From NCBI GenBank assembly GCA_947568835.1, contig OX387611.1, positions 5,708,001 through 5,772,000 of the forward strand: 64,000 nucleotides of DNA, given 5' to 3'. The stretch comes from Protonemura montana (lineage: Eukaryota; Arthropoda; Insecta; Plecoptera; Nemouridae). The notes under the pieces are model-generated. The model had not been told where the DNA came from and searched no databases. It saw only the letters and a program-made list of their open reading frames with translations. A program made the translations under genes and the position numbers. Shown piece by piece: positions 25,101-49,770 of this stretch. Position 1 is the first letter of the stretch. The number at the start of each line of letters is the position of its first letter.

Positions 25101-28100
25101 TGGGTGACCATCATACACATGACCAGTTCTGTTCGGGAGAGAGGTTGGCGGGATGAAAGTTAGTACAGCAACTTCACTCGCCTTGCTTATCAACTTCTCG
25201 ACAGCATGGATTTGTGGAGGAACCCTGCTGTTCGCGTTGTACCGTCTTTCGGAAGGGACGTTAAGCCGGTGGTCCCCTTGGTGCTCTTCGACAGGAGTAG
25301 GCTACGTGACTGCACTGACTTTCCCTCCTCCCTTCTAGGCTTGGTTAGGTTCATCATTATCCTCATCCTCATTCTCAACCTCGTTTTTATTAATTGTCTC
25401 ATAACGACCTCACCCGTTTGTTTTCAGATTTCAAAAGGTTGGATCCTGGGTCCAGAGCTCTGTGACATGTGGACGAGCAGTGACGTTCTTTGCTGCACGG
25501 CATCCATCTTGCATCTTGTTGCCATCGCCGTTGACAGGTGCGTTTAGTTCAATTAACAGACAACAGAGCGTGCTGCATGACATGACATTGTTTAGCACTC
25601 GAGTGCTTTCCTATTTTTAATAACACTAAACTTAGGATGTTAGCTGAAATTCTTATTGTGCTTTATGTGGCAGAATGTCATCTAGATTTATAAATTGATT
25701 TGGTTCTAAAATAGATACGATTTTAAGAACAATAAACATGTAACTACCTTATATAAATACCTCTTTTTGGGACCAGAGATAGGGGATGGGGCGAACAAGG
25801 CAAAGCTTAGAGGAGCGTATGTAAGTAAGAAGAAACGGGAAGAAAATTCGGAAAGAAAGGGATTGGAATTTTTAGAAAGAGGTTTGGGTAAAGGAATGGG
25901 ATAATTGTAATAAAATTAAAAAATTATGAATAATATAGACAATTTTAAAATATATATTGTAAATTGTTAGAGTTTTAATATACACATGAGATAAGGTTGC
26001 ATTCACGAACTAAAAACTCTAGCTTACTTGTCTTCCCTACAAGTCTTACCATCTCCTAGACCAGTGCAGGAAAAAGTCAACTATTCTGCAACAAAGTAAT
26101 CTAATCTGACACAAACGAACACAAAATAGCCGCTTTATTTTTGAGCTGAATTATAACAGAACACGGAAAGAGTACGATTAAGCGATGGAGTAGAAAAGAT
26201 CAACACAAATTAACACAATTATTGACCATTTTACTATTAAAAAAAAATATTTTTTACAAGATGAAAAGCAAATTAAAGTTCACTTTTGAAAAGAAATCAC
26301 TGACTAGTTCAGCGCTTGGGCTAAAACATCACAAACTTGGCTCGAAAGATGTTAAGCTTAAATATGATCTTGCTGGTTTTCGAACACAAATAGTTTTAGC
26401 TTTGAGTATGGGAAACTTCTTGGATTCATTGGTAGTTTCTAGCTTGCAAGTTCCATGGAACTATTCATTTTGACGAACATGGTAGCAAAAAGGACAACGA
26501 CAAGAATTTATTAAAGAACAAACTAGCGAACTACTGTCGGGTTTATAGCTAATAGTTTTTACTTTCACCAAACTAACAACCCTTTGTCTAGAACTTTATC
26601 GATTACACAAATCTAGTTTGCAAAACATGTGCCAACTTAGGAACTTGCGGCAATTTTGTCAAAGAATTTTGTGACATGAAGAAGATATGTAAGTGATATG
26701 ATTTAAACTATAGTTCTACGGAATGGTGAAATGTTTACTTTAGTGTTTTCAAGTTTCAGCCAATAAATTGAATTGGTTCCAAAAACATTTTTATTCAGTA
26801 ATTTTTTTTGTGAAGCTGTGGATAAGGGTCATTCCATGTCAATTCAACAATTTTTTTTTGGAAAATTGACCGTTACCTCTTAGATTTCCAAAAAACTTGG
26901 TGCGATGGTGACCATATCATTTATTTTGTTGAAATATTTTTTTGTTTGCCTCTAAGTCAAATGGTTCGCCCGGTACGGCACCGAAACGGCGGGTCGGTAG
27001 GTACTGAATTTTGGGGTACACGCGCCGCTTTTCTTTCTCAAATTGCGTCGGCTGTAATGAAGATACATAAATGAAAAAAACATTTGAAATTTATTAAAAT
27101 GTTGTTTTATAAAAAATCAATTTGGTTTATTAAAAAAATTAAAAATACGTCCATCCCCCTTTTAAATTTTTTTAACCCTTATTATCTTTCAAAAGGGTAC
27201 TTTTCTTTTCTTAAAAAATATATTTAGCTATGGGTATTAGTTCCATTTCTAAAGGTTTCAGAGTTGCACAAAAAGAGAATTTTGAGATAAAAATTAAAAA
27301 GTATCACCGCGTGTAATATTTTTCCTGTGTTTACGCGTATATGGGATAGTCCTCACAAAATCAACACATCGTTAAACCTGACCAACTTTTTTAAGAAATA
27401 AAAGTAGGCTCACGCATGAAGTAGGCTTAGAGCAGATTTCACTAATTTTTTCAAAATTTTGTCCCGCACCGTTCATGGGCAGTGGACAGTCCGAACTTTA
27501 GCACTTTTCAGTGTTCTGGTTCGCCATCCACGACGTTTGGGCTTCTAGCTAACGATTTCTTAAAGATAACGTTGAATAAAAACACCAATAGAATGCCGAG
27601 AAAATTTAGGTAAGGTAAACCCCTTAATGTATGCACATCCCCTTAATTGAGAAGAAAATAAATTTACCCTACTTTTAACTTAATGAAAATGTAATGAGAC
27701 ATAGCCTATAAATTAGCAATCAGTAATTGCTAATGCTGAGCTGCTGAGCAAACGAGGCCAGAAACACGTAGTAACGGTAGCTGCTACTTGATAGCGCTTG
27801 TAGTCGTCTTTTTCAACAAACCTCTACTAATAAATTATTACTACTCAAAATACCATTAGGCTTGACATTTTTGTCAAGATTACTTGAAGTTTAAAGAAAA
27901 ACGATTTGAAATTTGTTTTGAATGCTAAGTAAAGGACAACTAAATTTCCCGACTTTTCGTAACTTAAACTAGTTACTTCTTCAAGGGTTAGAGCAGTCCT
28001 TGAAGAAGTAACTAGTACATGTTACGAAACGTCGGGAAATTGAGTTGTCCTTTACTTAGCATTATACACCCATTTCAAATAGGTTTTTGCTAAAGCTAGT

Positions 28101-31100
28101 GCTAAGGATAAATCAAGTAGACATGAGTCTAAAAACCATCATACTTGAAGTTTAACCAGTTTCAAATTCGAGCAATTTAAATTATATTTTTTAACACTCA
28201 AAACGACGGTGACTCCATCAAGTGGCATTCACAGTTTATTTCACTCTAAAGTTGTCATTTGACGGCCATATTTCGCGGCGAAAGTTAAACATTACCACTA
28301 CGTCAGTACGATATCATTTACAATTTACCGAATCGAGGGTTATTACACTCAAACCGAAGCCAAGCCGCTCGTACTAAACTTTCCATTTGCAACGAAATAG
28401 ACCCCAACAAACAACAATCCATTTAGCAATTCCTCTCCCACCATAACGTTCGATTCACTAGGCAACCGTCCGAGCACGCTCGAGTCCCGGTTCTTATCTC
28501 AGTCGGGTCATCTTTGCTAAACTTTGCTGGTGAAATTCCTCGGGCGCATCATTAATGGTACGTTAGAGAAGGCCATTCTACCCTTGTAATTATCGCTTGG
28601 CTGTGTTTTGGCTAAGGTCCCAGAGGGGGAAGGAACTTAAGGGAGACAAGGGATTGAAATAAGATGGGGTTCATGTTTATGTTCACCTTAAGGGAAAATG
28701 TTGAGATGTGATCTTGCTGAGTGTGATTAAATCTGAGATACTGTTATCTCAACTTTTATGGCTTACTACCATAGCTCTAATTTATGAAGTGTCTTCCAAA
28801 AAAATGGCCGGTGAGTGGCGACTTTACAACGACAAAAATTGGTGGATGAATTGAATTGAATTGCTTGTATTGTATAATTAAAAAACCATGTACATAATGG
28901 CATATGACAAGTCAATATCTAAAATCTATGTTCTATGTTATTTGCTTGAAATTTAAAAACTCTTTGACAGAATAAAGAGCATTTTTTAACAGATTTTTTT
29001 TTACATTGGTCTTAAAGGTTAAAGTATTGTTTTTTACAAAATACAGCTTATAATCAGTTGGTTGATCAATCAGATGATTTTAAGTGGAGTCGATATCATT
29101 TTGAGTGTAAAATAAATTAATTTTTGTTGCTTGTATTTGAGACTGGTTTACGCTTGATCAATACTTATTATTGCTATAAGTATCGATTAATATAGGTACA
29201 TATTTCGATATTAATTATCATAAATACAATAAGAAACTTAAAATTAAAGTTAAAGTTGACTAAATTAAGGTTATTCATCGAAAACTTATTTATAATTTAA
29301 AAGTTTGTTCAAACTCATAAGTTGTAAAAATTTGAGAAATTAAAATTTTATAAACTCTTAGATAAAGTGGGTGTTAAATCGATTGTCATGGCAACAATCG
29401 ACCACATGCAGTAAAAGTCACTTGTTTCCAAGAGTTAGGGAAGATTTTATTAACGCCACTTAAAACACTCTTAAATACCGTTTAGGGGTGATTTTAGCCG
29501 GCCCGAAAATTTGCTTGAAAACAGTGATATTTTAATAATTCCAAGCCCAAAGAACAGGGATAACAAATAGTTTTTAACAATATCTTTGCTTCGAAACGAA
29601 ATATCTGGTGACTTGGAAATACAAACAAAATATCAATGGGACTTCTTACTTTGACCTCCAAATGACAGTTTAAAAGTTAAACCCCGTCCTTCCAGGTTCA
29701 AGTATTAAACAGTGATTTGAACAGAGAGAAAATAGTGACGGCTGCTAAATAAAATTTCTTTTATGTGAAAGGACAAAGCCTTCCTGAATCATCAACAAAT
29801 TCAAATAAAAATTAACATCTGTCTTGTGTATTTATCTAAAAATCCTCTTTCAAATCTCTCAAAAACCTCCGTTAAGCGTCGCAAAAGCAAGATTTAAACG
29901 GCGTTGGTGAATTTAACCCAAAGTAGCTTAGCTATTAGTTGAAAAATATTGTTAAACCATGTCTTAGCATTTTCAAATGGTTTTCTATCTCGGTGTTCTT
30001 CATGCTATTTTCACTTACTTATTGACGCTCTCTCAGATACTGGGCAGTGACGTACGTCGACTACATCCACACCCGCAACGTGAACCGCATCGGAGGGATG
30101 ATCGTGATGATCTGGACAGTGGCGATCGTAGTGTCGCTGGCGCCGCAATTCGGCTGGAAGGACCCCGAGTATCTCGACAGAATCAATTTGCAACAACGGT
30201 GTTTGCCGTCGCAGGATGTCGCTTACCAGGTATGGCCGCTCGCCACTGATATACAACGTGAAAGCCAATTTCTGAAGGTTATTTAAATTATTTCATTTTT
30301 ATTAATTTTGATTAACGACGCACTGTTTTAATAAAGGGCCCCGTGGTAATGGTCTAATAGCTTTGTTAGATGCATGGGTAAGTAAAATTATTTTTATAAA
30401 ACTAACTAGCCTAGAAGGAATTGATTTGTGGTGTTTAACGACGCGCTGTTTTGACAACTGGCCATGCGGCACTAGTCTAATGGCGTCGGTGAATGAGTGA
30501 ATGATGATGAGGATGATGATGAACCTAACCTAACCTAGAAGGGAGGAGGGGAAACTTGGTGCCGGCACGTAGCCTACTCCTGTCGAATAGCACCAAGGGG
30601 ACCACCGGCTTCACGTCCCTTCCGAAGGACGGTACAACGCGAGCAGCAGGATTCCTCCACAAATCCATGCTGTCGAGAGGTTGATAAGCAAGGCGAATGA
30701 AGTTGCTGTACTAACTTTCATCCCTCCAACCTCTCTCCCGAACAGAACTGGTCATGTGTATGATGGTCACCCATCCAATACCTGACTCAGCGCAGTGTTG
30801 CTTAACTTCGGTGATTTAACGAGAACCGGTGTTTCCAACACGCCAAACCGTTCGGTTAAGATTGCCAAGACAACCCTTGTTTCACCCACCCATTACTATT
30901 GATGAGGATGACGAAGAACCTAATCTAGCCTAGAAGGGAGGAGGGGAAACTTGGTGCCGGCACGTAGCCTACTTCTGTCGAAGAGCACCAAGGGGACCAC
31001 CGAAGGACGGTACAACGCGAACAACAGGATTCCTCCACAAATCCATGCTGTCGAGAGGTTGATAAGCAAAGCGAGTTAAGTTGCTGTACTAAAATTAAAG

Positions 31101-34100
31101 ATTTGATTACCTAAAAAAGTGTCAGTTTTACAATGCCATGATATGGTAAAAATTAAAATGTCTAAATAAAAGACATAACATCTAAAGCCTTAAGCCCGTT
31201 AACATCATATCTCCATGGTTGCAGCAAATCAAATACCAGAAGTGCAGAATTCCATAATTAAAATCTTGCAATTAATTTAATAGTAGGAGTATCTCATTGG
31301 CTGTTACCATGGTGATGAGTTGTTAATCGACAGATATTTTTTTATTTATAAATACCGCCAGTTATAATGACATATCTCTACGGTCACAGCCAATACTTTT
31401 ATTTGCATCTCAACCTCTGCTAACCTTTTCAATTAGAGAGTGTTAAATAATAATAACAATGAAAAAAACTATTTAAACTGGATTTTAAATGCTAAGTCAA
31501 GAACAACTAAATTATCCAACGTTTCGTAACATGTACTAGCTACTACTTCAAAGGTTAGAGCAGTCCTGACAATTTTCCGATAACAAAAAAACACATACAA
31601 TTATAAAAATTACCTAGTTCAAGCTTCCTAAATGCATCTAAATAAAATAATCAGGGTCAATAACTCAAAAACTAATGTATTTTGTATTTTCTGAAATACT
31701 TCAAGTAGACATGAGTCTAAAAACAATCATAATAGCAACAATATCATCATAAAGGTCTCAATTAACTGTCTTACCTTCCAGATCTTCGCGACCTGCTCCA
31801 CATTCTACGTCCCACTTCTTGTCATCCTCTGCCTCTACTGGAAGATCTTCCAAACGGCGCGCAAGCGCATTCACCGCAATCGAGCTCGTCGTCCGCAGAC
31901 AGCTACCAGCGACAAGGCGGCGCGACCCCCGATGAAGAGCTTCCTTTCCAAGAAACGCTTCCGGAAGATGAAGTCAAACAAGAAGTCGTCGGCTGCTGAA
32001 GCCTTGGTTTCGTCGCTGGTGCTCGTTGAGGGTCATTCCACTGCTTCGGTGGATGTACCATATGACGAGGAGATGGTGTGTGGTGTTTTATTATTAGAAA
32101 CACTTTATAACCTCTTAAAAATTGACGCCTGGCATTTGGAGTTACTCGAGATTGAATAGTTGTGTCACTAGAATCAGAGTGCCTGTGAATATTCACAGCC
32201 TCTTGGTCCTACTCCTTGGAGATCCGTAATTCTCATCAAATTCACTGACATCCTTACAAAATTCAAATGTTCTAGTAGCTTTATTGGTTAGAGCAACACC
32301 CACAATAGGTGGTTATCGAGGTTCGAGTCCCCGTTTGGGCACGTTTTTATAACACGTGTTCTACCAATTTTGACAGTGATAAAACCGTTAAAATACTAAT
32401 TTAAACCGTGAAAACACTTAAATTAGCGCGGAGTTTTTGAGAGAATACAGAATCAGAAATCTGACAATGGCGGTCTTGGTTTGAAGGTTTCTCTATGGCA
32501 ATCGCTATGCAGGTTATTTAAGAACAGTGAATGTCCTATGTCCCATTCGCAAAAAAAACCAATGTTATTAACTTAAAAAAATGCCTAATTCCATTTTGAT
32601 GAATGCCTGCGCAGTGCATGGAGAACAACGAGCATTTCAGTGGCGAAACAAGTTGCAACGCAGAGGCTGCCTCCAGTGGCGCACCGGACGGTGGCGACGT
32701 CGAGGCGGCGGTGGAGACGACGGTGCTGACCATCTCAGAGGGCGTCGCGTTGAGCGCGGCGCAGGCGCAGAACGAGTCGCCGGACAAGACGTCGACCAAC
32801 AACGGATCGGCGAGTCATCAGAGTCACATGAGTGATATGTCAAAGGTTGGTTGGTAATTTTCGATGAAATCTTATCAAAATTGCAAGCGTTTGCAATGCG
32901 CGGGGTATTTTATTATTTTGAACACTTTAAACGTCTCAAAAATTAATGCCCGTTTGGGCATCATGACAGTGGGTCATGTGGCACTGGTCTACTGGCGTCA
33001 GTGAATGAGTGGATGATGATGCACCTAACCTCTAGACAAGATGGGAGAGTGGGAAATCTGCTGCCAGTAACCTACTCTTGTCGAAGACCAAGGGGACCAA
33101 CGGCTAAACATTCCTTCCGAAGGACGGTACAACGCGAACAACAGGATTCCTCCACAAATCCATGCTGTCGAGAGGTTGGCAAGCAAGGCGAGTAAAGTTG
33201 CTGTACTTGCTTTTGTCCAACATACGTTTTTTCCGAACAGAACTGGTCATGTGTATGATGGTCAGCCAACTAATACATGGGTCAGCGCAGTGTTGCTTAA
33301 CTTTGGTGATCTCACAAGGACCGATGTTTGCTCTAAGTTTGACTATTTCTTTCTCTCAGGTAACGATGCTGAAGGAAAAGGAGCCCGTCGTGGTGGAGAG
33401 TGCCCACAAGGAGCGGGCCGTGAAGACTCCGAAGGAGAAGAAGGAGAGTCTTGAGGCGAAGAGGGAACGGAAGGCTGCCAAGACGCTGGCAATTATCACA
33501 GGTAACACAAAAGACCTGTTAATTGGCACTTTTAGGGCCAATTTTTCAAAGCTTTTAATTGATATGTATCGCATTTAATATTGATAAGATATAGATTGAA
33601 GATAATTCAAGTCATTTACACGCCTTGACAGCCTTAAAGATAAGCGCAGCCATTTTTCTTTATAATAACTTGTGCCTGCGGTTTCAAAATCCCAATTTAT
33701 TTATTATTGTTTTTAGACTCATGTCTACTTGATTTATCCCTTGCACCTGTTTTAATAAAAAAATTTGAAATGGGTTTTGAATGCTCAGTAAAGGACAGCT
33801 AAATTTCCCGACGTTTCGTTACATGTACTAGTTATGTTTTGTCTTTGTTTAACATTTTGGCACATTTTTTTTTTTGACAAAACACTTTCAAATGGGATTT
33901 AGTAGGGTTTTTTGCCCCATGACTGGCATGACTGGCGTATGGACGGATCTCCTTGCTCTATTTTAATTTTCTTGTAAACGATCGTTCAGGTTAGCGTAAG
34001 TAGACCAGAACTAAAAAAAATTAATCTGCGTATTACCATCCTCGCGTTTTTTTTTTTTCTGTAAATAAAAAATCATGGTTTATTGTTCAATTATATCTAA

Positions 34101-34865
34101 ATTAGTTGAAACCTACGTGAAATCTTATTTAAAATGCAAACGCTTGCGATGCGCGGGGTATTTTATTATTAATGAACACTATAACAGTGCTCTCCCAAAA
34201 ATCGATGCCCAAACGGGGACACGAACCACAATTTCCACCCGTCGCGGGTGTTGCTCTAACCATTTGAGCTAAATGGAGCTACTCGGTTTTTGAGAGGATT
34301 TTAGTGTATTTGATGAGAATGACGAATCTCCAAGGAGTAGAACCATGAGGCTGTGAATACTCACAGTCACTCTGATTCTAGTGACGCTATATCACGTCAC
34401 AACCATTCGATCTCCAGTAACTTTAATTTGACGTTGGATGCCTTTAAATTTTGTGACATTCGATTAAAATGTCAAACGCTTGCAATGCGTGGGGTATTTT
34501 ATTATTAATGAACACTATAACCCTCTCAAAAATCATTATAAATCATAATAATAATAATAATAATAATAATCAAACCATTTATTGATGTTGCATCGTAACT
34601 GTCAAACTTGTTTTGCTTCTCAGGCGCTTTTGTAGTCTGCTGGTTGCCCTTCTTCATCATGGCCCTGTTGATGCCTCTCTGCGGCGACGCCTGTCCCATC
34701 AACGACGTGATGGCGTCCTTCTTCCTCTGGCTCGGTTACTTCAACTCGACCTTGAACCCGATCATCTACACGATCTTCAGTCCCGAGTTCCGGCAGGCGT
34801 TCACCAGGATTCTGTGCGGGGCCAAACACATGCGCCACTTGCGGTTGAAAGGCAAACTACGGTGA
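9978..34865 (+). CDS. 5-HT1A: 5-HT1-type serotonin receptor (GPCR), 5'-incomplete, 7 exons
   Basis: Class A G-protein-coupled receptor for serotonin; family knowledge predicts Gi coupling at the neuronal plasma membrane. Seven exons join without a frame break: 9978-10111, 25428-25537, 30037-30229, 31782-32075, 32615-32845, 33360-33501 and 34624-34865, giving about 448 residues from late TM1 to the stop. Visible marks are LAVADL in TM2 (D2.50), SSDVLCC in TM3 (the amine-binding Asp), DRY split over exons 2 and 3, [10 protein letters not shown] in TM5, CWLPFF in TM6, NPIIY in TM7 and a C-terminal ILCG cysteine. The third intracellular loop is long (about 200 residues) and basic, as in 5-HT1 receptors. 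Position 5.42 is Ala where vertebrate 5-HT1A has Ser; this is inferred by alignment from memory. The exon(s) for the N-terminus and start of TM1 were not found and probably lie upstream. Octopamine or dopamine receptors are less likely given the TM3-i2 sequence. Whether it is 5-HT1A or 5-HT1B is uncertain. Confidence 0.93.
10325..10772 (+). repeat. 114-bp tandem repeat, four units
   Basis: The repeat starts of ggtagccatggagatgctga are exactly 114 bases apart (10354, 10468, 10582, 10696). Each unit contains cgcctgacagagcttctcaa. The last unit is the most diverged. It lies in receptor intron 1. Confidence 0.9.
11255..11466 (-). repeat. 5S-derived SINE, tail part only
   Basis: Starts with the conserved end (tgtggtgttgaacgacgcac) and runs to the cttccgaaggacg segment. 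It is then cut off where the 43-bp minisatellite element begins, so that element probably inserted into or recombined with this SINE. Confidence 0.75.
11470..12165 (+). mobile_element. Element B with 43-bp minisatellite core, about 13 units
   Basis: The core unit is gtgttcgactgggcatgtga ctctgtcccagtgcaac plus tttcac, rich in cacgtg palindromes. The left flank (tgtgcactgggagcgaattg) and right flank (gctcgctctcgggtcactcc) recur at other copies, so this is a dispersed element rather than a simple local satellite. The unit is not recognised as a named family. Confidence 0.85.
13282..13330 (+). repeat. Interstitial TTAGG-type repeats
   Basis: gttaggttaggttaggttag, a short break, then aggttaggttaggcc. 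This is the arthropod telomere unit, though short runs are common inside insect chromosomes and this one is not a telomere. Confidence 0.6.
13553..13612 (+). pseudogene. 5S rRNA 5' fragment
   Basis: Matches the first ~60 bases of arthropod 5S rRNA as recalled: caacggccataccatgttga, then aacaccggttctcgtccgat and caccgaagttaagcaacatc. It keeps the true 5S form tctcgtccgatc, whereas the SINE family has tctcgtgagatc, so it is a separate and younger derivative. The last half of 5S is absent. It could be the head of another 5S-derived retroposon. Confidence 0.75.
14925..15175 (+). mobile_element. Single-arm copy of the fold-back family, sense
   Basis: Contains ttttatgtggttcttttgtt, atgaaacgtcggcaatttta and the constant end gacatgagtctaaaaaccat. 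A second short end piece of the same family lies just upstream at 14780-14815. Confidence 0.7.
15982..16014. repeat. Perfect 15-bp hairpin with 3-base loop
   Basis: gccttagcggggttg / cat / caaccccgctaaggc. The arms are perfectly complementary and GC-rich in an AT-rich surrounding. No gene is adjacent. It is not followed by the CTRR end expected of a Helitron. Confidence 0.85.
16427..16655 (-). mobile_element. Fold-back element, - orientation, 9-bp duplication
   Basis: Starts with the constant end tgatggtttttagactcatg, followed by two inverted arms around tttcttacttgaagaagtag. It ends in agtttttcttaa. The direct repeat tttattctg is at 16427-16435 and 16647-16655. Confidence 0.75.
17600..17740 (+). 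repeat. Short MITE-like repeat, second copy
   Basis: aaaggtccgttaaatctaac, cagttcgttaacttgttatt and gaaacagccaatcagaacat match the copy at 6.6 kb in order. Confidence 0.45.
17815..17880. repeat. AT-only palindromic tract
   Basis: attatattttaatattttaa, then aattatattatattatgtaa and ttataatataatataattc. Low complexity, self-complementary. Confidence 0.7.
19042..19315 (-). mobile_element. Single-arm copy of the fold-back family
   Basis: Reads in reverse from tgatggtttttagactcatg through cccgacgtttcgttacatgt to gcatctagacaaaataatca. It is not folded back, so it shows the ordinary 3' part of the parent element. Confidence 0.7.
19765..20045 (-). repeat. Interspersed repeat family C
   Basis: Reverse copy: tcttgcagattactcgcatt and taaccggctcgtcaactcaa. 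Other copies are near 27690-28330 (split), 53990-54065 (partial, -), 60370-60620 and 63610-63920. All share tgcgagtaatctgc and gagcaaacgagc-type blocks in the same order. Class unknown. Confidence 0.65.
20829..21212 (-). repeat. 5S-derived SINE, diverged full-length-like copy
   Basis: Has the tail (gttgacaacgcgctgtttta), the middle (ccaccggcttaacgtctttt) and a damaged head (ttcggtgatcacaccaaaat). It is more diverged than other copies. Confidence 0.75.
21900..22012 (-). repeat. Fold-back family fragment
   Basis: Contains actatttgaactggtttttg, ttcccaacgtctcgtaactt and tagttactttattaagggtt-type sequence. It is diverged and lacks the constant end. Confidence 0.5.
22440..23705 (+). mobile_element. 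Element B, about 28 units of 43 bp
   Basis: The longest array. Variants (ggcatgtg or gacatgtg, tgccccag or tgtcccag, tcaac or gatcgac) alternate in higher-order blocks, as expected from unequal exchange. It ends with gctcgctctcgggtcactcc and cggtgcactttt, the conserved right flank. Confidence 0.88.
23800..24117 (+). repeat. 114-bp tandem repeat, three units (second locus)
   Basis: Same unit as at 10.3 kb, spaced 114 bases (23823, 23937, 24051). It begins about 100 bases after the end of a 43-bp minisatellite element. Confidence 0.9.
24121..24837. other. Unrecognised, short inverted segments
   Basis: gacagaagcgattgtcacgt and gacaatcgtgacaatcgctt near 24300-24375 are partly inverted and contain cacgtg. 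No gene seen. Confidence 0.4.
24838..25400 (+). repeat. 5S-derived SINE with three tandem head units
   Basis: + orientation. The 5S-like promoter head (gaaacaccggttctcgtgag, then atcaccgaagttaagcaaca) is followed by three ~107-bp units, then the body (acgttaagccggtggtcccc) and the ttaggttcatcattatcctc tail. It sits directly upstream of receptor exon 25428. Confidence 0.9.
25428..25537 (+). CDS. 5-HT1A: 5-HT1 receptor exon: extracellular loop 1 and TM3
   Basis: Bounded by tttgttttcag and gtgcgt. It encodes 36 residues from [15 protein letters not shown] through [15 protein letters not shown] to AVD, plus two bases of the DRY arginine. It supplies the disulphide Cys at the top of TM3 and the Asp that pairs with the serotonin amine. 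The upstream intron is 15.3 kb. A 5S-derived SINE lies directly upstream and reaches to within about 30 bases of the exon. Confidence 0.95.
26592..26696 (+). other. Possible terminal exon of a small Cys-rich secreted protein, or a relic
   Basis: Inside intron 2 of the receptor, after a possible acceptor (cctttgtctag), a 34-codon frame with a stop has six cysteines in a short span: [16 protein letters not shown] then [10 protein letters not shown]. An AATAAA follows at 26762. No start or signal peptide exon was found, and the family is not recognised. Chance is a real alternative for so short a frame, but the Cys density is unlike the surrounding DNA. Confidence 0.25.
27690..28330 (+). repeat. 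Interspersed repeat family C, split by fold-back element
   Basis: The left part has gctgagcaaacgaggccaga. The right part resumes after the insertion with ccagtttcaaattcgagcaa and aacactcaaaacgacggtga. Only the fold-back element at 27881-28155 interrupts it. Confidence 0.65.
27881..28155 (+). mobile_element. Fold-back element inserted into another repeat, 13-14 bp duplication
   Basis: Inverted arms with the signature gaaacgtcgggaaatt and right end gtctaaaaaccatca. The flanks tacttgaagtttaa (27881-27894 and 28142-28155) are identical. It splits a copy of an interspersed repeat (27690-27880 and 28156-28330), so the insertion boundaries are clear. Confidence 0.82.
28331..30036. other. Receptor intron 2, later part
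   Basis: A GC-richer block at 28380-28640 contains ccgtccgagcacgctcgagt and ccagagggggaagg, with no open frame of note. The rest is AT-rich with nothing recognised. Confidence 0.4.
30037..30229 (+). CDS. 5-HT1A: 5-HT1 receptor exon: DRY, TM4 and extracellular loop 2
   Basis: Bounded by gctctctcag and gtatgg. It completes the Arg of DRY and encodes 64 residues beginning [22 protein letters not shown]4 ([18 protein letters not shown]) follows, then loop 2, which contains the second disulphide Cys (QQRC), ending in AYQ at phase 0. GC content is clearly higher than in the flanking introns. Confidence 0.95.
30420..30862 (-). repeat. 5S-derived SINE, near full-length reference copy
   Basis: Complete order on the + strand, read backwards: tail tgatttgtggtgtttaacga, gatgatgag run, aacctaacctaacctagaag, body, a single head unit, and the 5S-like start ending cgccaaaccgttcggttaa. 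About 443 bp. It is a good consensus for the family. Confidence 0.92.
30901..31092 (-). repeat. 5S-derived SINE fragment
   Basis: Only the middle part of the element (cctagaagggaggaggggaa to ttgataagcaaagcgagtta); the head is missing. Confidence 0.8.
31455..31735 (+). mobile_element. Member of the same family, long antisense arm with short sense end
   Basis: Starts aaaaaactatttaaactgga and carries cgtttcgtaacatgtactag, then caagcttcctaaatgcatct and gggtcaataactcaaaaact. It ends in the sense orientation with caagtagacatgagtctaaa. It lies in receptor intron 3. Confidence 0.65.
31782..32075 (+). CDS. 5-HT1A: 5-HT1 receptor exon: TM5 and start of the third intracellular loop
   Basis: Bounded by ttaccttccag and gtgtgt; 98 codons, phase 0 at both ends. 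It encodes TM5 ([20 protein letters not shown]) and the G-protein-contacting helix [11 protein letters not shown] Lys/Arg-rich start of the third intracellular loop follows, ending in VPYDEEM. A mobile-element sequence starts about five bases after the donor. Confidence 0.92.
32080..32360 (+). repeat. tRNA-derived SINE in receptor intron 4
   Basis: Contains ttttattattagaaacactt, tattcacagcctcttggtcc, actccttggagatc, and a tRNA-like part ggttagagcaacacccac with gaggttcgagtccccgtttg. It matches inverted sequence at 34100-34440 in intron 6. It begins about five bases after the exon donor. Confidence 0.75.
32615..32845 (+). CDS. 5-HT1A: 5-HT1 receptor exon: middle of third intracellular loop
   Basis: Acceptor cctgcgcag, donor gttggt (weak), 77 codons in phase 0. 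The product starts [13 protein letters not shown] and ends DMSK. It is acidic, Ala/Ser-rich low-complexity loop sequence, so homology alone gives little support. The support is the open phase-0 frame, the high GC content and the correct joining to both neighbours. A donor eight bases further on (gtaatt) would put a stop at the junction and is rejected. It could be an alternative (cassette) exon. Confidence 0.75.
32855..32950 (+). repeat. tRNA-derived SINE end in receptor intron 5
   Basis: gcaagcgtttgcaatgcgcg, then gtattttattatt and cgtctcaaaaattaatgccc, the same family as in introns 4 and 6. It begins about ten bases after the donor of exon 32615-32845. Confidence 0.7.
32948..33333 (-). repeat. 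5S-derived SINE filling receptor intron 5
   Basis: Tail (gggtcatgtggcactggtct), body and 5S-like head (cagcgcagtgttgcttaact, then ggtgatctcacaaggaccga). It ends 26 bases before exon 33360 and makes up most of the 514-base intron. Confidence 0.88.
33360..33501 (+). CDS. 5-HT1A: 5-HT1 receptor exon: end of third intracellular loop, start of TM6
   Basis: Acceptor ttctttctctcag, donor gtaaca; 47 codons plus the first G of a Gly codon. It encodes [12 protein letters not shown], then the conserved segment [19 protein letters not shown] that leads into TM6 in arthropod 5-HT1 receptors. A 5S-derived SINE ends only about 27 bases before the exon. Confidence 0.93.
33708..33840 (-). repeat. Fold-back family 3' end fragment in receptor intron 6
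   Basis: Reverse copy from gtttttagactcatgtctac to cgacgtttcgttacatgtac. It stops abruptly before the parent's inner part. Confidence 0.65.
34100..34570 (-). repeat. tRNA-derived SINE copies in receptor intron 6, with (AAT)n
   Basis: A reverse tRNA-like part (ggggacacgaaccacaattt, gttgctctaaccatttgagc), the cctcatggttctactccttg-type body, then a second end fragment (aaacgcttgcaatgcgtggg) that runs into an (AAT)n microsatellite at 34545-34570. It ends about 54 bases before the last exon. Confidence 0.78.
34624..34865 (+). CDS. 5-HT1A: 5-HT1 receptor last exon: TM6, TM7, C-terminus
   Basis: The acceptor is tttgcttctcag. It completes Gly and encodes [19 protein letters not shown] (TM6), [20 protein letters not shown] (TM7 with NPxxY), helix 8 [14 protein letters not shown] and a short basic tail ending KGKLR before TGA at 34863-34865. 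The tail length is normal for 5-HT1 receptors. No polyadenylation site could be assigned with confidence downstream. Confidence 0.96.
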
Positions 34866-37360: not shown

Positions 37361-37750
37361 ACCGAACGGTTTGGCGTGTTGGAAACACCAGTTCTCGTGA
37401 GATCACCGAAGCTAAGTAACACTGCGCTGAGACAGATATTGGATTGGTGACCAGTTCTGTTCTGGATAAAAGTTAGTACAGCAACTTTATTCGCCTTGCT
37501 TATCAACCTCTCGACAGTATGGATTTGTGGAGAAATCCTGTTGTTCACGTTGTACCGTCCTTAGGAAGGGATGCTAAGCCAGTGGTACCCTGGGTGCTTT
37601 TCAACAGAAGCAAGCTAGGCGCCGGCACCGGGTTTCCCCTCCTTCCTTCTAAGCTAGGCTAGGTGCATCACCATCCACTCATTCACCGACGCCATGTTCC
37701 AAATGTCCCATTGTCAAAAAACTGCGTCGTTAAACACCACAAATCAATCA
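37361..37750 (+). repeat. 5S-derived SINE, full-length + copy
   Basis: Begins accgaacggtttggcgtgtt with a complete 5S-like head and ends in cgtcgttaaacaccacaaat followed by caatca. It gives both ends of the family. Confidence 0.92.
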
Positions 37751-38058
37751 TTTTAGATAAGTAATATTTAGTTGTTACAAGACGCAGCCCGCAGAGCAAA
37801 CTCGGCTCCTCCACCAACAATGGTGCTGAAAAAGAACAACTAATCGATTACAACCCATTTATTTTCCATCTTTCAAAAGGCCTTATAAATAAAATAAACA
37901 TACTTGAATAAATATTTTGTTTCTCAAGCTCACCTACAAATTTGTTCTTAAAAATAAATAAAAGAAGGCTCATTTGTTTCATTCTCTTTGAAACAAAATT
38001 AATAATGTCACGTGGGCGGGAATCAAAAGTGGACCCTACAGCAACCAGATCCACTCGT

Positions 38059-38131
38059 CTGTCGATCGTTGCTCTGTGGTAAACGTGCTCACTTCGTGTT
38101 GTATAGGTAAGGCTTTCGACTCCCAGTCAAG
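38059..38131 (+). repeat. tRNA-like sequence 1
   Basis: A-box-like tgctctgtggt and B-box-like ggctttcgactcccagtc at tRNA spacing. First of the cluster. Confidence 0.5.
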
Positions 38132-38311
38132 TTCATATTTTGACAGCTCTCAGCTCAAGTCTCTCTGGTATCTAATCATCACATAAAAAAAGCGATAAAT
38201 ATATGCCTATACAATTTGCATTTACACGAAGCATATCTCAGCAATGTCCAATCACGCAATGACGTTTAAACTTTGAACGCACTCCCAATGATTAAAAAAA
38301 AAAAATTAGTC

Positions 38312-38384
38312 CCAAGCGGGAATCGAACGCGAGTCCTGCTACATATCTGTTGGATGGCATAACCACTCGGCCACGAGAGCGACT
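38312..38384 (-). repeat. tRNA-like sequence 2
   Basis: Reverse strand: gtggccgagtggttatgcc (A box) and gcgttcgattcccgc (B box), separated as in a tRNA. It would need a longer variable region to fold as a true tRNA. Confidence 0.6.
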
Positions 38385-39160
38385 GCCTGGCCGTAGAGGT
38401 TTATAATTAATAGTAATTACAGATGAACTACCTGCAACAGGTATACTATACGGGTTACCGACCGATGGCCGTGATTTATCGACATTTAATTGATCAAGTA
38501 CATTTGATATCCAACAGACTTCGTTTGCGATCTCGATGTGCTTTAACTCGACTGCTGGTTCGGTGATACTTGTTTGGTATGGTTGACCAGGGGACCTGTC
38601 ATCGAGCAACAGGGTTCGACTGGCGTTCCTCCAGTCGGGTCCTAAGGCTTGCATTTTCGCGTCAGATCGTGGCAACTGGTGAAAGCCCAGTCTTTTTTGG
38701 AGTGGCTGAGTTCCCCAGCAATGCTTGGTGTTGGGGTCCGGTCCGGTATTTACACTTTGTGTAGAAGCGAAACCTTCTCTCTCTAGCTACCCGTGTTGTA
38801 CCCGTTGGAAGGTGGTTGTATTCTCTTCAGTAATCTTCTTGCATGTAATTTCTTGTTCTTGTTTCACTCTTGCATATCTGTTTACTTGTTTTCGTTGTAT
38901 ATTCATTTTGTTTCCACTCTTTGACAATCATATCTGTGCTGATTTCATAGTTGGATTCTTACGTTAGTAATTTTTATGTTATAACTTGTCAATATAAGTT
39001 GATATAAGCAGCTTGTGATTAGCTGCTTGTTTACTACACATCAACCTAAATTTTACTTTTTTGCAGCTCATTTAAAAACTCTGGTAACGAAAAATTTCAG
39101 AACCTTTCAATTTTTGGTCGTACACTTTAAGTTCAAGTAAAACAAAATGAAATGCACAGA

Positions 39161-39232
39161 GCTGGTATCGAACTTCGACCTAGCTGCTCACTTATCAAGC
39201 AACGTGACCACTCGTCCACGACAGTGGCCACA
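39161..39232 (-). repeat. tRNA-like sequence 3
   Basis: Reverse strand: gtggacgagtggtcacgtt and gaagttcgataccagc. Different body from the other members. Confidence 0.55.
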
Positions 39233-39351
39233 AATCAGTGCAGATTTTTAATAAACATAAATTGCTGCAAAACAACGATATGTAAAGAGATTGAAGCAAC
39301 ATAGAATCGTTGATATTTTAGTTGCATTATTTCAATATCCTCTCATCTGTC

Positions 39352-40440
39352 CGGCGTGGCTCTTTGGTTAGCGTGCTTGCTTCGTGTCGTGGAGGTCAGG
39401 CGTTCGATTCCCGGCCGAGCAGCTTTTTGGCAGTTCTGAGCTCAAGTCGCTCTAGTATCTAATAATCAAACTCGATGAAGCTGGATAAAATATCAAAAAT
39501 TTTACAAGTCCAGAGAGTAGTTCAATATTCTGCCAACAGGTGGCAGTTTAACACTCACAACTGTTCCTTTATACTTGATGCTAGACTTAGGAGCCGCTCA
39601 CGGGGTTAGGTGGGGTCTGGGGTCGTGGGATCGTCCCGCAAAATTGGCGGGTGCGACTGGCGCGGAGCGCCAGGAGCGCCCGGCAATTTTGCTACTGTCT
39701 TAAACATACGCCCAAAAAAAAAAAAACGAGAACTTACGTCGAGGCATCGTGATTCGAACCGAGTATCTCATAAAATCTTTGACCAAGTGAACGTGGAAGT
39801 CGATGCCTTTAACCGCACGACCACGAGGCTGTCATCATTTTTTAGCATTTTTTAAATGTATAAGTTCCCTTACTCCAGCTCCCACGGGTGGATGTTACAT
39901 TCCAACAGTCAAAAGATTCCTCCGTCGAGTGGGTTCGATCCACGTAGCGTATCTTTTTGACGTTACCGAAGCAGCGATCATACCAATGTGCCACGCAGTC
40001 GACCATGCTATGAGGTGAAAAATGAATCTATTTGAATTTCATGTTTGAATATTCACTTACTGGATAAGTACATGGTAAGTTCATGTTAGCAGTCGCAACA
40101 TTTATCTTTTAAAATTATTAAAATATCAAAGACAATCATTATTCGTCTTCGCAAGCAAGAGCTGGACCCGGCTACCACACCAAGCAGTGCAGAGGTACCA
40201 GATAACCACGCCTAGCAGTGCAGAAGCACCCGACAACTCCACAATACGGGATTTCACCATTTTCAACTGACTAACGTGAATGCAAGCTTTCTAGGCTGAC
40301 AAGGTGAACGCCAGTTAAAGCCCGTTGCTTGTTCACAGTGCCCATATTTACTCTTATCTATAAAGTTTCACCGAACACGCAATCGTGTTAAGACGCATCG
40401 TGACCCCCAGCGCAATCTGTTGGGTATCAAATGTACTACG
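39352..40440 (+). repeat. Composite ~1.1 kb tRNA-like module, copy 1
   Basis: Order on the + strand: + tRNA-like (39352-39422, ggctctttggttagcgtgct, gcgttcgattcccggcc), a nested GC-rich hairpin (about 39652-39706), an A-run, - tRNA-like (39743-39832, gtgattcgaaccgag), - tRNA-like (39919-39999, gtgggttcgatccac), then a ~400-base body ending acccccagcgcaatctgttg. The same order recurs at 41583-42645. Confidence 0.8.
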
Positions 40441-40633
40441 ATATTTTCCGAGTTTTAAATATATTGAACTTCTCACAGTAAATAACCAAAATAAAATATT
40501 CATATCCAACATAATATCCTTTAATAACATAATACATATCCAACATTATATCCAATATGTCCATCATAATATCCAACAGATTGCGCTGGGGGTCACGGTG
40601 CGACTTAACACGACTGCGTGTTCGGTGAAACAT
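40367..40633. repeat. ~60-bp inverted repeat
   Basis: The block at 40367-40431 (gtttcaccgaacacgcaatc to cagcgcaatctgttggg) recurs inverted at 40572-40633 with a few mismatches. It flanks an AT-rich loop that has its own atatccaac repeats. Confidence 0.8.
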
Positions 40634-40873
40634 TTACAAATAAGAGAACCAGGAGGCCCTGTGATCAAGCATCGGAGTTCGACTTGCGTCCCTCCTGCAG
40701 GGCTTCAATACTTGCATCATGTTGATAAATGGTGAAAGTCCTTACTCGTGGTGTGTTTGAGCAACACTGCGCAAGGACAAGTCCTTCGGTGCTTTAAGTG
40801 GAATTTTCTATTTGCTTGATGCCATTCAGATGTTTAACCATAGTACTTAATACGAAGAAAAAAAAGGAACTTC

Positions 40874-40944
40874 ATCGGGAATCGAACGCGGGTCTTCACA
40901 CACCGCATTCGTATACCTTAACCGCTCAGCCACGAGAGCAGATG
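40874..40944 (-). repeat. tRNA-like sequence in cluster
   Basis: Reverse strand: gtggctgagcggttaaggta and cgcgttcgattcccgat. Among the best-preserved A and B boxes in the cluster. Confidence 0.6.
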
Positions 40945-41126
40945 AACCTTTCCAATAAATAAGGAAACATTAATTGCTAAACTAGGAAGGAGTGAAGCAA
41001 GTTGGTAATAAGGAAAGAACTTGGTTGATTGGTAAATTGCTGCAAAACAACGATGTGTAAAGATATAGGAACTACATCGAATCGTTGACATTTTAGTTGC
41101 TTTGTTTCATACTCCTATCAGTTGTC

Positions 41127-41450
41127 CAGCGTGGGTCAGTGGTTAGCGTGCTTGCTTCGCGACGTGAGGGTGATGCGTTCGTATTCCGGCCGAACAGCTT
41201 TTTGGCAGCTCTGAGTTCGAGTTGCTCTGGGATCTGATAATCAAACTCGACGCAGCTGGAAAAAATATCGAAAATGTTGCAAGTCCAGAGTGTAGTTCAA
41301 TTTTATGCCAATAGGTGGCAGTTTAGCACTCACATCTATTCCTATATACTTGATGCTAGACTTAGGAGCTGCACACGGGATAAGGTGGGGTGTGGGGTCG
41401 TGGTGTCGTCCCGCAAGATTGGCGGATGCGACTGCGTTTGCCGGTTGAAC
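41127..41450 (+). repeat. Partial copy of the composite module
   Basis: + tRNA-like (gtgggtcagtggttagcgtg, tgcgttcgtattccggcc), then the atgccaataggtggcagttt segment and the region before the nested hairpin, which is lost (cccgcaagattggcggatgc only). Confidence 0.7.
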
Positions 41451-41582
41451 GATGTCCCTCAGTAAATTTTGCTGGATAAATTGTTGTTCGTTTCTAAAAT
41501 CAGTGTCAGGCGTGAACCTGGATGGTAAACTTGACTTGAATCGTTGACATTTTAGTTGCTTTTTTTCATGGCCCTCTTATCT

Positions 41583-42645
41583 GTACAGCGTGGCTCTGTG
41601 GTTAGCATGCTTGCTTCGTGTCGTGGAGGTCAGGCGTTCGTTTCCCGGCCGAGTAGCTTTTTGGCAGCTCTGAATTCAAGTCGCTCTGGTAGCTAATAAT
41701 CAAACTCAATTAAGCTGGATAAAATATCAAAAATTTTACAAGTCCAGAGAGTAGTTCAATATTCTGCCAACAGGTGGCAGTTTAACACTCACAACTGTTC
41801 CTTTATACTTGATGCTAGACTTAGGAGCCGCACACGGGGTTAGGTGGGGTCTGGGGTCGTGGGAACGTCCCGCAAAATTGGCGGGCGCGACTGGCGCGGA
41901 GCGCCAGGAGCGCCCGGCAATTTTGCTACTGTCTAAAACATACGCCCAAAAAAAAATAAAAAAGTGAGAAGTTACGTCGAGGCATCGTGATTCGAACCAA
42001 GTACCTCATAAAATCTATGACCAAGTGAACGTGGAAGTCGATGCCTTTAACCACACGACCACGAGGCTGTCGTAAATTTTTTACATTTTTTAAATGTATA
42101 AGTTTCCTTACTCCAGCTCCCACGGGTGGATGTTACATTCCAACAGTCAAAAGCTTCCTCCGTCGAGTGGGTTCGATCCACGTAGCGTATCTCTTTGACG
42201 TTACCGAAGCAGCGATCATACCAATGTGCCACGCAGTCGACCATGCTATGAGGAGAAAAATGAATCTATTTGAATTTCATGTTTGAAAATTCGCTTACTG
42301 GATAAGTACATGGTGAGTTCATGTTAGCAGTCGCAACATTTATCTTTTAAAATTATTAAAATATCAAAGACGATTAATATTCGTCCTCGTACGCAAGAGC
42401 TAGGCCCGGTCACCACACCAAGCAGTGCAGAAGCACTCTAAAACTTAAAAATTTGGGCTTTCACCATTTGCAACAAGTTGACGTGAATGCAAGCTTTATA
42501 GGCTGGCTAGTGGAACGCCAGTCAAGGACCGATGCTCGTTGACAGTGCCCATATTTACTCTTATCTATCAAGTATCGTCGAACATGCAATTGTGTTAAGA
42601 CGCACTGTGACCCCCAGCGCAATCTATTGGATGTCAAATGTACCC
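41583..42645 (+). repeat. Composite ~1.1 kb tRNA-like module, copy 2
   Basis: Parallel to copy 1, offset about 2.23 kb: + tRNA-like 41583-41656, nested hairpin 41872-41926, - tRNA-like 41976-42068, - tRNA-like 42155-42240, then the same body ending acccccagcgcaatctattg. Similarity is high throughout, so this is duplication rather than two independent SINEs. Confidence 0.82.
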
Positions 42646-42727
42646 GATCAATTGATGCTGGACTTAAGTTGGAAACTTGGATGTTGATACGCCCGATATT
42701 AACAAAAATAAAATAATCGCATTCATT

Positions 42728-43447
42728 GATCGGGACTTGATCGTGGGCCTTCAACTACATCGACCGAACGGCATCGCCGCTCGACTACAAGAGCAGCTGT
42801 TCTAACCTGGTGTTTTAACAAAGGAGAAGATTACATTTCATAACCTAATTCGAAAACAGAATCGGAATCAGTAGCACCGAAGAAATTTTCCAAATATTTT
42901 CGTTTACTAAAAGCTTCCAGATCCAGCGCTGATATTCGAAACTGGTGACCCGAAATTGGTCGACTCGTGAGATTCTTGGCCTGTACCAACATGACCAAAT
43001 TTTGTGACCCGGAGGACTTCATTGATAAGAGGACGAAAAAAGAGACGTTAAAATCTTCGAACGACCTCCAAATAAAAAATTAAAAAATACAAAATATGCT
43101 GGCATCGAACGCGTACCGTACTGAGCGTAACTCGGACAGCTTAACCAATCGGCCACAAGGACGATTGATTTTAGTTGCAGGTTTATAATGGATACTTATT
43201 GCAGATGAACTACCTGCAACGATATGTAAAGACATACTACGTCAAATTGTTGAAGTTTTAGTTGCATTATACTATATATTTATATGTGCTTATTTATTTA
43301 TTGATTTCTGCTACTGTCTTAATCAAACGCCAAAAAAAAATATGCAAAAGTGATATCTGTGGCAAAAGTATAAACGGGATTCGAACCCGGTATTTTCTCA
43401 CTTGCACTTTCATCACAATCGCGAACTTTAACCACACGACCACGTGA
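42728..43447 (-). repeat. Three further tRNA-like sequences
   Basis: 42728-42798 (B box gggacttgatcgtgg, weak), 43096-43166 (ggcatcgaacgcg with aaccaatcggccac) and 43374-43447 (ggattcgaacccgg with aaccacacgaccac). All are on the - strand with different interiors. The last has the best consensus B box. Confidence 0.55.
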
Positions 43448-43740
43448 ACATCTGCTTGCTTGCAGATGACGTAACTGTCAAGACGTAACTTGATGGACCT
43501 TGATTGCGACAATGGCATTGTTCTACGCAGACGGTTATAATTACGGTGGTAAACTGAATATATGAATTTCATATCTGATATCCGGGGTGACAGACTACAC
43601 TGTATTATTACCACAGTTTGTAATCTCATTCATATTTGCCCTCGACTAACCATCTCTAAAAATGCACGATAATATGACCGATTATTAATCATTAGCGCAC
43701 CAAGCAAGAGCTGGCAGCAAGAGCAAGAGCAAGCAAGACG

Positions 43741-44056
43741 GGTGCTTACACACTGACTCTTACCTCTACCTACATTCTCAACGTGGGTCGGACAATATTA
43801 TATAACAAGCTGCCTGCAATGATCAAAGAACAGGAACATAGACAAGGATTCAAATCCTAGATCCATGACTACATGATGAAACAGAGTTTTTATCACAAAG
43901 ACGAGTGCCTCAACGATTAATTTACTCAAAATGTTGTTCTGAGGATTATCAATGTACGTGTTTGCTCAATGTAAGCGTCACTGACAATGTTTACATGCAT
44001 AAAATGTATGGAAAAACTGATACATGTAAATAAATAAATAAATAAATAAATAAAAA
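43741..44056 (+). mobile_element. LINE 3' end with (AAAT)n tail
   Basis: One frame reads RTILYNKLPAMIKEQ, then a piece with internal stops, then FYHKDECLND. A YNKLP motif followed by a charged segment is typical of the C-terminal end of LINE reverse-transcriptase proteins of the CR1/Daphne type (recalled, not searched). It ends in aaataaataaataaataaat at 44030-44056, a LINE-like tail. The copy is broken and 5'-truncated. Confidence 0.6.
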
Positions 44057-44175
44057 ACTCAACCTGATTCTAGCACTAATCGACCACTGCAAAGATACTG
44101 GCTACCACCAGTTGCCATGAGCTAGCGTGTTTTTCTTTTTTTTTTGCTGGGACCCCCATCTCGCCCTGGAAACAT

Positions 44176-45580
44176 GGCGATCCCTTCACACTTCATCGCC
44201 TCTGCCTTACACTATCAAAGATCGCTTCACACTTCATCGCCTCTGCCTTACACTATCAAAGATTGCTTCACACTAAATCGCCTCTGCCTTACACTATCAA
44301 AGATTGCTTCACACTAAATCGCCTCTGCCTTACACTATCAAAGATTGCTTCACACTACATCGCCTCTGCCTTACACTATCAAAGATCGCTTCACACTACA
44401 TCGCCTCTGCCTTACACTATCAAAGATCGCTTCACACTGCATCGCCTCTGCCTTACACTATCAAAGATTGCTTCACACTGCATCGCCTCTGCCTTACACT
44501 ATCAAAGATCGCTTCACACTACATCGCCTCTGCCTTACACTATCAAAGATCGCTTCACACTACACCGCCTCTGCCTTACACTATCAAAGATCGCTTCACA
44601 CTAAATCGCCTCTGCCTTACACTATCAAAGATCGCTTCACATTACATCGCCTCTGCCTTACACTATCAAAGATCGCTTCACACTACATCGCCTCTGCCTT
44701 ACACTATCAAAGATCGCTTCACATTACATCGCCTCTGCCTTACACTATCAAAGATCGCTTCACACTAAATCGCCTCTGCCTTACACTATCAAAGATTGCT
44801 TCACACTAAATCGCCTCTGCCTTACACTATCAAAGATTGCTTCACACTACATCGCCTCTGCCTTACACTATCAAAGATCGCTTCACACTACATCGCCTCT
44901 GCCTTACACTATCAAAGATCGCTTCACACTAAATCGCCTCTGCCTTACACTATCAAAGATCGCTTCACACTACATCGCCTCTGCCTTACACTATCAAAGA
45001 TCACTTCACACTACATCGCCTCTGCCTTACACTATCAAAGATCACTTCACACTACATCGCCTCTGCCTTACACTATCAAAGATTGCTTCACACTAAATCG
45101 CCTCTGCCTTACACTATCAAAGATCGCTTCACACTAAATCGCCTCTGCCTTACACTATCAAAGATCACTTCACACTACATCGCCTCTGCCTTACACTATC
45201 AAAGATCGCTTCACACTACATCGCCTCTGCCTTACACTATCAAAGATCGCTTCACACTACATCGCCTCTGCCTTACACTATCAAAGATCGCTTCACACTA
45301 CATCGCCTCTGCCTTACACTATCAAAGATCGCTTCACACTAAATCGCCTCTGCCTTACACTATCAAAGATCGCTTCACGCTACATCGCCTCTACCTTACA
45401 CTATCAAAGATTGCTTCACACTACATCGCCTCTGCCTTACACTATCAAAGATCGCTTCACACTACATCGCCTCTGCCTTACACTATCAAAGATCGCTTCA
45501 CACTAAATCGCCTCTGCCTTACACTATCAAAGATCGCTTCACACTACATCGCCTCTGCCTTACACTATCAAAGATCGTGC
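44176..45580 (+). repeat. 41-bp satellite, about 34 units
   Basis: Near-identical units containing cactatcaaagatcgcttca and cactacatcgcctctgcctt. Because 41 is not a multiple of 3 and the unit lacks stops, all three + frames stay open, giving spurious overlapping frames. It follows a LINE tail and the tRNA-like cluster. Confidence 0.95.
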
Positions 45581-49439: not shown

Positions 49440-49770
49440 TTTTCTAATGGCATGTTTGGCTGGCTGCCCCGGTGCATTCCGATTGTGCGATAGGGGCGAT
49501 TTGCACGTGTTCGACTGGGCACGTGACTCTGCCCCAGTGCAACTTTCACGTGTTCCACTGGGCATGCGACTCTGCCCCAGTGCAACTTTCACGTGTTCGA
49601 CTGGGCATGTGACTCTGTCCCAGTGCAACTTTCACGTGTTCGACTGGACATGTAACTCTGCCCCAGTGCAACTTTCACGTGTTCGACTGGGCATGCGACT
49701 CTGCTCCTGTGCAACTTTCACGTGTTCGATTGGGCATAAGACTGTTGCCCAGCGCAACTTTTTGTGCATC
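49440..49770 (+). mobile_element. Element B, short copy, about six units
   Basis: Left flank ggctggctgccccggtgcat and ggcgatttgcacgtgttcga, then six 43-bp units. The right flank is absent. It lies between ORMDL and orcokinin. Confidence 0.85.

Follow-up and report, generated by a model that had tools for sequence, protein, structure and literature searches.

Protonemura montana (Plecoptera, Nemouridae) carries a family of composite repeats, one member of which lies at 38004-43450 of the 64,000-nucleotide stretch analysed here (the window; contig OX387611.1, C14:5708001-5772000 in our numbering). The cluster of tRNA-like sequences found there is a fixed composite, not a chance pile-up of short interspersed elements (SINEs), and is best read as one ancient, decayed copy from a family of repeats or mobile elements. 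Judged from its sequence, this family is on balance probably non-coding and built of short RNA polymerase III (Pol III)-type units around a conserved core. Where clean, its unit of about 1.7-1.8 kb comprises a + tRNA-like unit, a hairpin core, - tRNA-like units and inverted arms, and it occurs singly, in head-to-tail arrays and as palindromes.

A Fixed Composite Across the Genome

A scan of 38059-43500 for box B (at most 2 mismatches) and box A (at most 2) at a spacing of 25-74 finds 14 tRNA-like units (7 +, 7 -), whereas 50 first-order Markov shuffles average 1.14 and never exceed 4; 58,000 bases elsewhere in the window hold 9. Three of the seven + hits (39906, 42144 and 43320) overlap - units and are doubtful. 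Homology, assessed partly by eye, gives about 15 units, with ten on the - strand and five on the + strand (38077, 38580, 39357, a degenerate one at 41124, and 41591), in good agreement with an earlier note on this DNA, which had counted about fourteen, four + and some ten -. Related stretches at nine other loci exceed their shuffles in 9/9 cases, from 3 against 0.85 up to 12 against 0.85.

The two module copies of about 1.1 kb described in that note were confirmed: 39352-40440 and 41588-42643 share 89% identity across 1.08 kb, and in both a + unit is followed by a conserved stretch with a hairpin (39638-39692 and 41872-41926), an A-run, two - units and a shared body. This body is indeed present, but it includes a separate conserved core. 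The neighbours named for the cluster's end are also there, namely the tail of a long interspersed element (43737-44050), with 82-87% matches on contigs C1, C12, C13 and C16, and a 41-bp satellite (44179-45577).

The assembly searched comprises 258 Mb in 34 contigs (C-numbers), and 37 loci (L-numbers) were retrieved from it around module matches. When the best 40 of 743 first-look candidates for the 1,089-bp module were scored, 72 matched stretches resulted, and 32 of these (counting the window's own) span 88% or more of the module at 75-100% identity; near-complete matches lie on C2, C3, C5, C11, C13, C14 and C15. In 31 of the 37 loci (all except L023, L036, L037, L038, L041 and L045) the + unit and core are preceded, on their own strand, by a left-arm match of at least 250 nt, and the right arm, which is the inverted repeat of the left, is matched as well in 28 of 37. 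L026, L027, L034 and L040 have parts of the window's two-unit layout in common. Several divergent tRNA-like units in opposite directions do belong to one fixed composite, as had been proposed, and it is repeated in the genome in constant order.

Units moving only on their own, which the earlier note had named as the outcome that would undo a composite, were not what the + unit search returned. Among its best 40 hits, with 667 weaker candidates outside the scoring, 38 fall in the window or the retrieved loci, mostly in composite copies (some partial, such as L041), and the remaining two lie at C13:3931267 and C1:21558342. The + head pattern occurs at 51 genome places, 14 of them at loci outside the retrieved set. 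When unit u2 served as the only query, 10 matches were obtained and scored: 4 belong to the window or to composite copies, and the other 6, at 76-77%, lie at further places. This search missed lower-identity u2 copies that show in a 17-sequence alignment. Four of the 6, spaced about 2.3-2.4 kb at C5:16634917-16642184, perhaps represent another array type.

Of 42 genome matches in the C14 group, 9 break off at 42995-42998, and other copies run on into apparent further tRNA-like units. A protein-coding reading near 42930-43030, prompted by the sequence spanning 42997, was rejected: these stretches look like more tRNA-like units and lack a long shared frame at four loci.

Arrays and Palindromes

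The core motif (up to 3 mismatches) occurs at 873 genome places, 451 on one strand and 422 on the other, and the reversed motif, used as control, at 0 and 1. The arrangement was read from 100 listed places, each an exact match lying on C1 or C2. Among these, 46 make up 9 same-strand arrays whose periods are about 1.68-1.79 kb, a few gaps being two periods long; 18 pair up in inverted orientation, giving 9 pairs with members 690-996 bp from each other; 15 fall in 5 other groups and 21 are alone. Each array locus has a private period (1752, 1787, 1707 and about 1760 bp), and arrays contain 2-9 copies.

Locus L057 comes from an array with 9 core-motif places at exact 1,752-bp spacing. Its unit runs in the order + unit, core, A-run, - unit, - unit, right arm, spacer, left arm, - unit, and it aligns to window positions 39355-40762 and 40799-41019 and then again to 41589-42643, at 67-69%. 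Since the unit aligns twice in succession, the best reading of the window's two modules is that they were adjacent members of an array and have since decayed, two tandem copies of a unit that forms clean arrays elsewhere. The head-to-tail arrangement that defines a satellite is present at other places in the genome, and the window retains two such units in decayed form. To the right of the C1 array, too, the sequence resembles the right end of the window's cluster (72% to 42784; 84% at 42935-42997).

Inverted arrangements also occur: L058 forms a palindrome whose two arms each carry the core, L053 (C15) is a long palindromic version, and within the composite at L044:3013-7009 (period about 917 bp) and L051:1249-3442 (about 820 bp) inverted core pairs are themselves repeated in tandem. 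The microRNA names that Rfam attaches to L051 were rejected, as their scores lie under the gathering thresholds and their positions are those of inverted core pairs. Between the unit at L057 and the next 1,752-bp unit, 8 of 29 differences fall within a 38-nt stretch of one tRNA-like unit (L057:1653-1690). Hypervariable cassettes in the unit interiors were nevertheless discarded as an explanation: the young copies differ by point changes and have comparable hot spots beyond the units, for which drift under relaxed constraint may be explanation enough.

Terminators, Box Footprints and Core

A T-run follows box B closely in most units. In a set of 171 distinct units from the retrieved loci, in which identical units were counted once and those near locus ends dropped, TTTT lies within 30 nt past box B in 87%, against 22% at random places, and TTTTT in 49%, against 10% at random and 3% upstream of box A. 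Where box B lacks a good box A partner (at least 2 mismatches), TTTTT falls to 18% (n=138), and with box A at least 3 off to 6% (n=47). The stricter units of the window have TTTT within 30 nt in 9/9 cases and TTTTT in 6/9. These runs make the units look like short Pol III units. The + unit itself ends in TTTTT before the core, so that, by sequence, the core does not appear to be its transcribed body.

The units have box A and box B, as tRNA-, 7SL- or 5S-derived SINE heads do, but a head and body within a single Pol III transcript is, judging by sequence, contradicted by the frequent TTTT and by the TTTTT ahead of the core. Functional tRNA genes were rejected as well, their fold being recognised by neither program: in a check of the kind that the earlier note had proposed, ARAGORN reported 0 tRNAs in the window and in six loci, and the Rfam tRNA model gave nothing at E<=10 in 37500-44200.

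Conservation was assessed on 22 sequences (the two window modules and 20 loci, with a group of young copies entered by one representative), and the background for each box is the share of compared 11-nt stretches that reach its identity. Among the box footprints only that of u6 is strong; u7 has a fair one, and the rest are weak. At u6 (39716-39840, -), identity is 0.98 in box B and 0.91 in box A, levels reached by 0.1% and 1.4% of the background, and 0.66 in the interior. Values for u7 (39905-40010, -) are 0.83 in box B, 0.86-0.90 in box A (2.2% of background) and 0.63 inside. In u2 (38294-38390, -; box A 38363-38373, box B 38319-38329, then a T-run) the interior drifts (0.59 in 17 sequences) and the boxes stand at 0.87 (A, 9% of background) and 0.81 (B); u13, aligned in 14 sequences, has 0.88 in box B (4%), 0.81 in box A and 0.73 inside.

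The stretch 39356-39715 has a mean pairwise identity of 0.79-0.98, mostly at least 0.86. Its 232-bp core (copy 1, 39484-39715; copy 2, 41718-41949; both +) reaches 0.86-0.98, compared with mostly 0.52-0.83 for 15-nt stretches outside. The core contains a GC-rich hairpin of 55 nt that is nearly invariant among 46 core copies. Of 41 predicted pairs, 5 have changed on both sides; the best covarying one (203/258) is U-A in 41 copies, C-G in 4 and gapped in one, and the covariation term amounts to no more than -0.3, a small value. Constraint acts on the core and on some boxes: the core, and in several units the boxes too, have kept their sequence where everything else has drifted. A coding core was rejected, a one-base indel (alignment column 163) splitting the copies, and a viral contig collection, searched for a viral origin, contained 0 exact matches to either of two core patterns. 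The motif CAGGTGGC in the core, which we take to be CTCF-like, is a candidate lead only.

Carriage by a hAT-like Element

Thirteen loci (12 on C3/C5, and L043 on C2) form a young group, about 95-98% alike and sharing sequence past the arms. Elements of the hAT type have CAGNG-type inverted ends, and ends of the CAGTGTCGGACTGGCC type are presumably hAT-like. The left end CAGTGTCGGACTGGCC was found in 6/13 young loci at five different flanks (one common to L009 and L010; L013; L018; L020; L043). In L046, a longer copy of L010, an inverted right end at 7410 delimits an element of 4,571 bp; L047 also has a right end, possibly as part of a nested insertion. Ends of hAT type thus stand at a constant position in young C3/C5-type copies, and carriage of the young-group composite inside a hAT-like element is partly shown.

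A second hAT-like left end follows the same inner sequence (L012:4648, L013:3522, L016:4245, L018:5067, L020:5075, L038:4832 and L043:3313, in oriented copies), probably a nested insertion common to several young copies.

Relation to Known Systems

No published description of the composite was found by title or abstract opening, a search that did not cover subscription papers and repeat databases. To that extent the earlier proposal of an undescribed element is supported for the fixed composite, but its units are not SINE heads with bodies.

Some SINEs have a highly conserved central domain, and MER6 is a V domain carried by a mariner miniature inverted-repeat transposable element (PMC6887750). 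Both features recur here, namely a strongly kept non-coding domain linked to tRNA-headed elements and its spread as DNA-transposon cargo, but the present family has numerous short tRNA-like units, oriented both ways and mostly bearing terminators, the core lies beyond the + unit's terminator, and the carrier looks hAT-like. Reptile sSats are SINE-derived satellites (PMC10702118), and Hy/Pol III and Xenopus Satellite 1 are SINE-derived tandem repeats (PMC9659126). Such arrays likewise arise from tRNA-related SINE parts, whereas the present unit is 1.7-1.8 kb long with several tRNA-like units, a hairpin core and inverted arms, and an origin from one SINE is not seen. Tetris, a foldback element of Drosophila virilis, shares inverted repeats and satellite arrays, but its entry names no tRNA-like units (PMC9659126), and no pair of ends with a target duplication was found in the present family. 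Finally, the inverted-repeat (IR) boundary elements of fission yeast also combine several box-B sites with inverted repeats, and IR-L requires its five B-boxes for full boundary activity (PMC4502379). Function was assayed there and would be a prediction here, where hundreds of copies exist, some carried by a transposon-like element.

Alternative Explanations

A chance pile-up of several SINE families at one spot, the alternative first proposed for this cluster, would account for the tRNA-like boxes in each unit, the A-run beside several of them and the further tRNA-like hits at 32276 and 34217 of the window. It is nonetheless very improbable and largely refuted, because the order is fixed, identically so in dozens of genome copies. 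Moreover, what appear as A-runs are runs of T that lie past box B, resembling terminators rather than tails, and the matches to u2 alone, subject to the lower-identity copies missed, do not indicate a high-copy repeat. We also consider it unlikely that the family is a functionless SINE-derived satellite, in which unequal exchange grew the arrays and gene conversion kept the core and boxes alike. Arrays of 2-9 copies with private periods do point to local homogenisation, SINE-derived satellites are known (PMC10702118) and some box footprints are weak; yet conversion would not select short boxes and leave interiors of 30-50 nt drifting, as in u6, and the same conservation pattern is found in dispersed single copies.

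A non-selfish host system, either a non-coding RNA gene family or a TFIIIC boundary array whose box-B clusters would act as chromatin boundaries by analogy with fission yeast IR elements, likewise seems improbable. The many box-A/B sites, their inverted arrangement and the conserved core would suit it, as would the requirement for five B-boxes in IR-L (PMC4502379), but copies lie within a hAT-like transposon at several flanks, many are decayed, and copy number and arrays vary by locus.

Against the preferred reading, that of a mobile or repeat family of Pol III-type units around a core, several results must be set. The 171 units of the terminator set are related copies, so their percentages are not independent tests. 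Box B of u7 is matched by 14% of background stretches, box B of u2 by 28% and box A of u13 by 26%; the interior of u5 (0.85) is nearly as kept as its boxes (A 0.90, B 0.91), and u4 (A 0.73, B 0.66, interior 0.63) has no footprint. Gene conversion could also have caused the likeness of the cores. The hAT-like left end was detected in only 6 of the 13 young loci, and no 8-bp target-site duplication was found, the flanks of L046, the sole two-ended copy, differing at 4/8 positions. At the left flank of the C1 array the predicted left arm was not found within 1.4 kb, where only a u8-like unit appears, and no protein or autonomous partner was found in the frames of the few loci read.

Proposed Mechanism and Significance

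Under the preferred reading, the tRNA-like units may be short Pol III units or TFIIIC sites, which the lineage would need to remain open and unsilenced or to produce short RNAs. Spread, which is partly shown, would proceed by local tandem amplification, foldback rearrangement and transport as cargo of hAT-like transposons. A more specific version is offered tentatively: a new mobile non-coding element whose selected parts would be bidirectional Pol III mini-genes (TFIIIC sites) around the hairpin core, acting as a mobile chromatin boundary or short-RNA source, riding transposons and growing tandem and palindromic arrays. Such a mobile boundary would be comparable to the fission yeast IR elements (PMC4502379).

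Pol III-dependent repeats are usually taken as SINEs with one promoter each. If confirmed, a family that retains many terminator-bearing tRNA-like units and a conserved core in arrays, palindromes and transposon cargo alike would tie together the conserved domains of SINEs, satellites of the Pol III type and TFIIIC boundaries. Its several hundred natural copies are material for asking what such promoters are kept for.

Further Features of the Window

The cluster opens with u1 (38059-38181, +), a paralogue of the module's + unit, and continues past u2 to the left inverted-repeat arm (38453-38794, +; beginning CGGGTTACCGACCGA), which contains the + unit u3 (38580-38623). Unit u4 (39140-39235, -) precedes u5 (39339-39430, +), whose boxes span 39357-39411 with TTTTT directly after. 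Beyond u7, self-comparison places the right arm of unit 1, of an inner (truncated) type, at 40208-40442 (-), followed by an inter-unit spacer (40443-40568) resembling array junctions in L057 and, by alignment with the L057 unit, the inner-type left arm of unit 2 (40569-40744, +). Next come u8 (40855-40950, -), found by box scan with a T-run, and an extra partial copy of the + unit and core start (41033-41434, +), recognised by the window's self-homology.

Unit 2 has its own + tRNA-like unit (41573-41665), with TTTTT 12 nt past box B, and, after its core, two - units (41988-42053 and 42166-42233, within 41950-42250) identified by homology and box scan. Homology also places an outer-type right arm, the array end, at 42415-42653 (-), before a right end block (42654-42997, -) with u13 (42733-42788). 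Unit u14 with its spacer (43082-43220, -) is homologous to the left-end block 38294-38446, and u15 (43306-43450, -), detected by box scan with a T-run and bearing an A-run, is the cluster's last unit.

Outside the cluster, two good A/B-box units, mutually alike, occur at 32276-32330 (+) and 34217-34271 (-). Four 5S rRNA-like sequences lie at 13550-13658, 24836-24956, 30736-30856 and 37361-37466, and 91-bp tandem repeats (149-554, 1435-1674, 24884-25162 and 55920-56107) appear by eye to be derived from the 5S gene, which suggests that 5S-type repeats form arrays in the window too. One 43-bp minisatellite occurs in four separate arrays (11511-12082, 22457-23651, 49504-49761 and 61889-62373). A reading frame in L048 matches the Pfam family CC149 (9.8e-39), and a frame in the window resembles 7tm_1 (1e-06, slightly under the cut-off).

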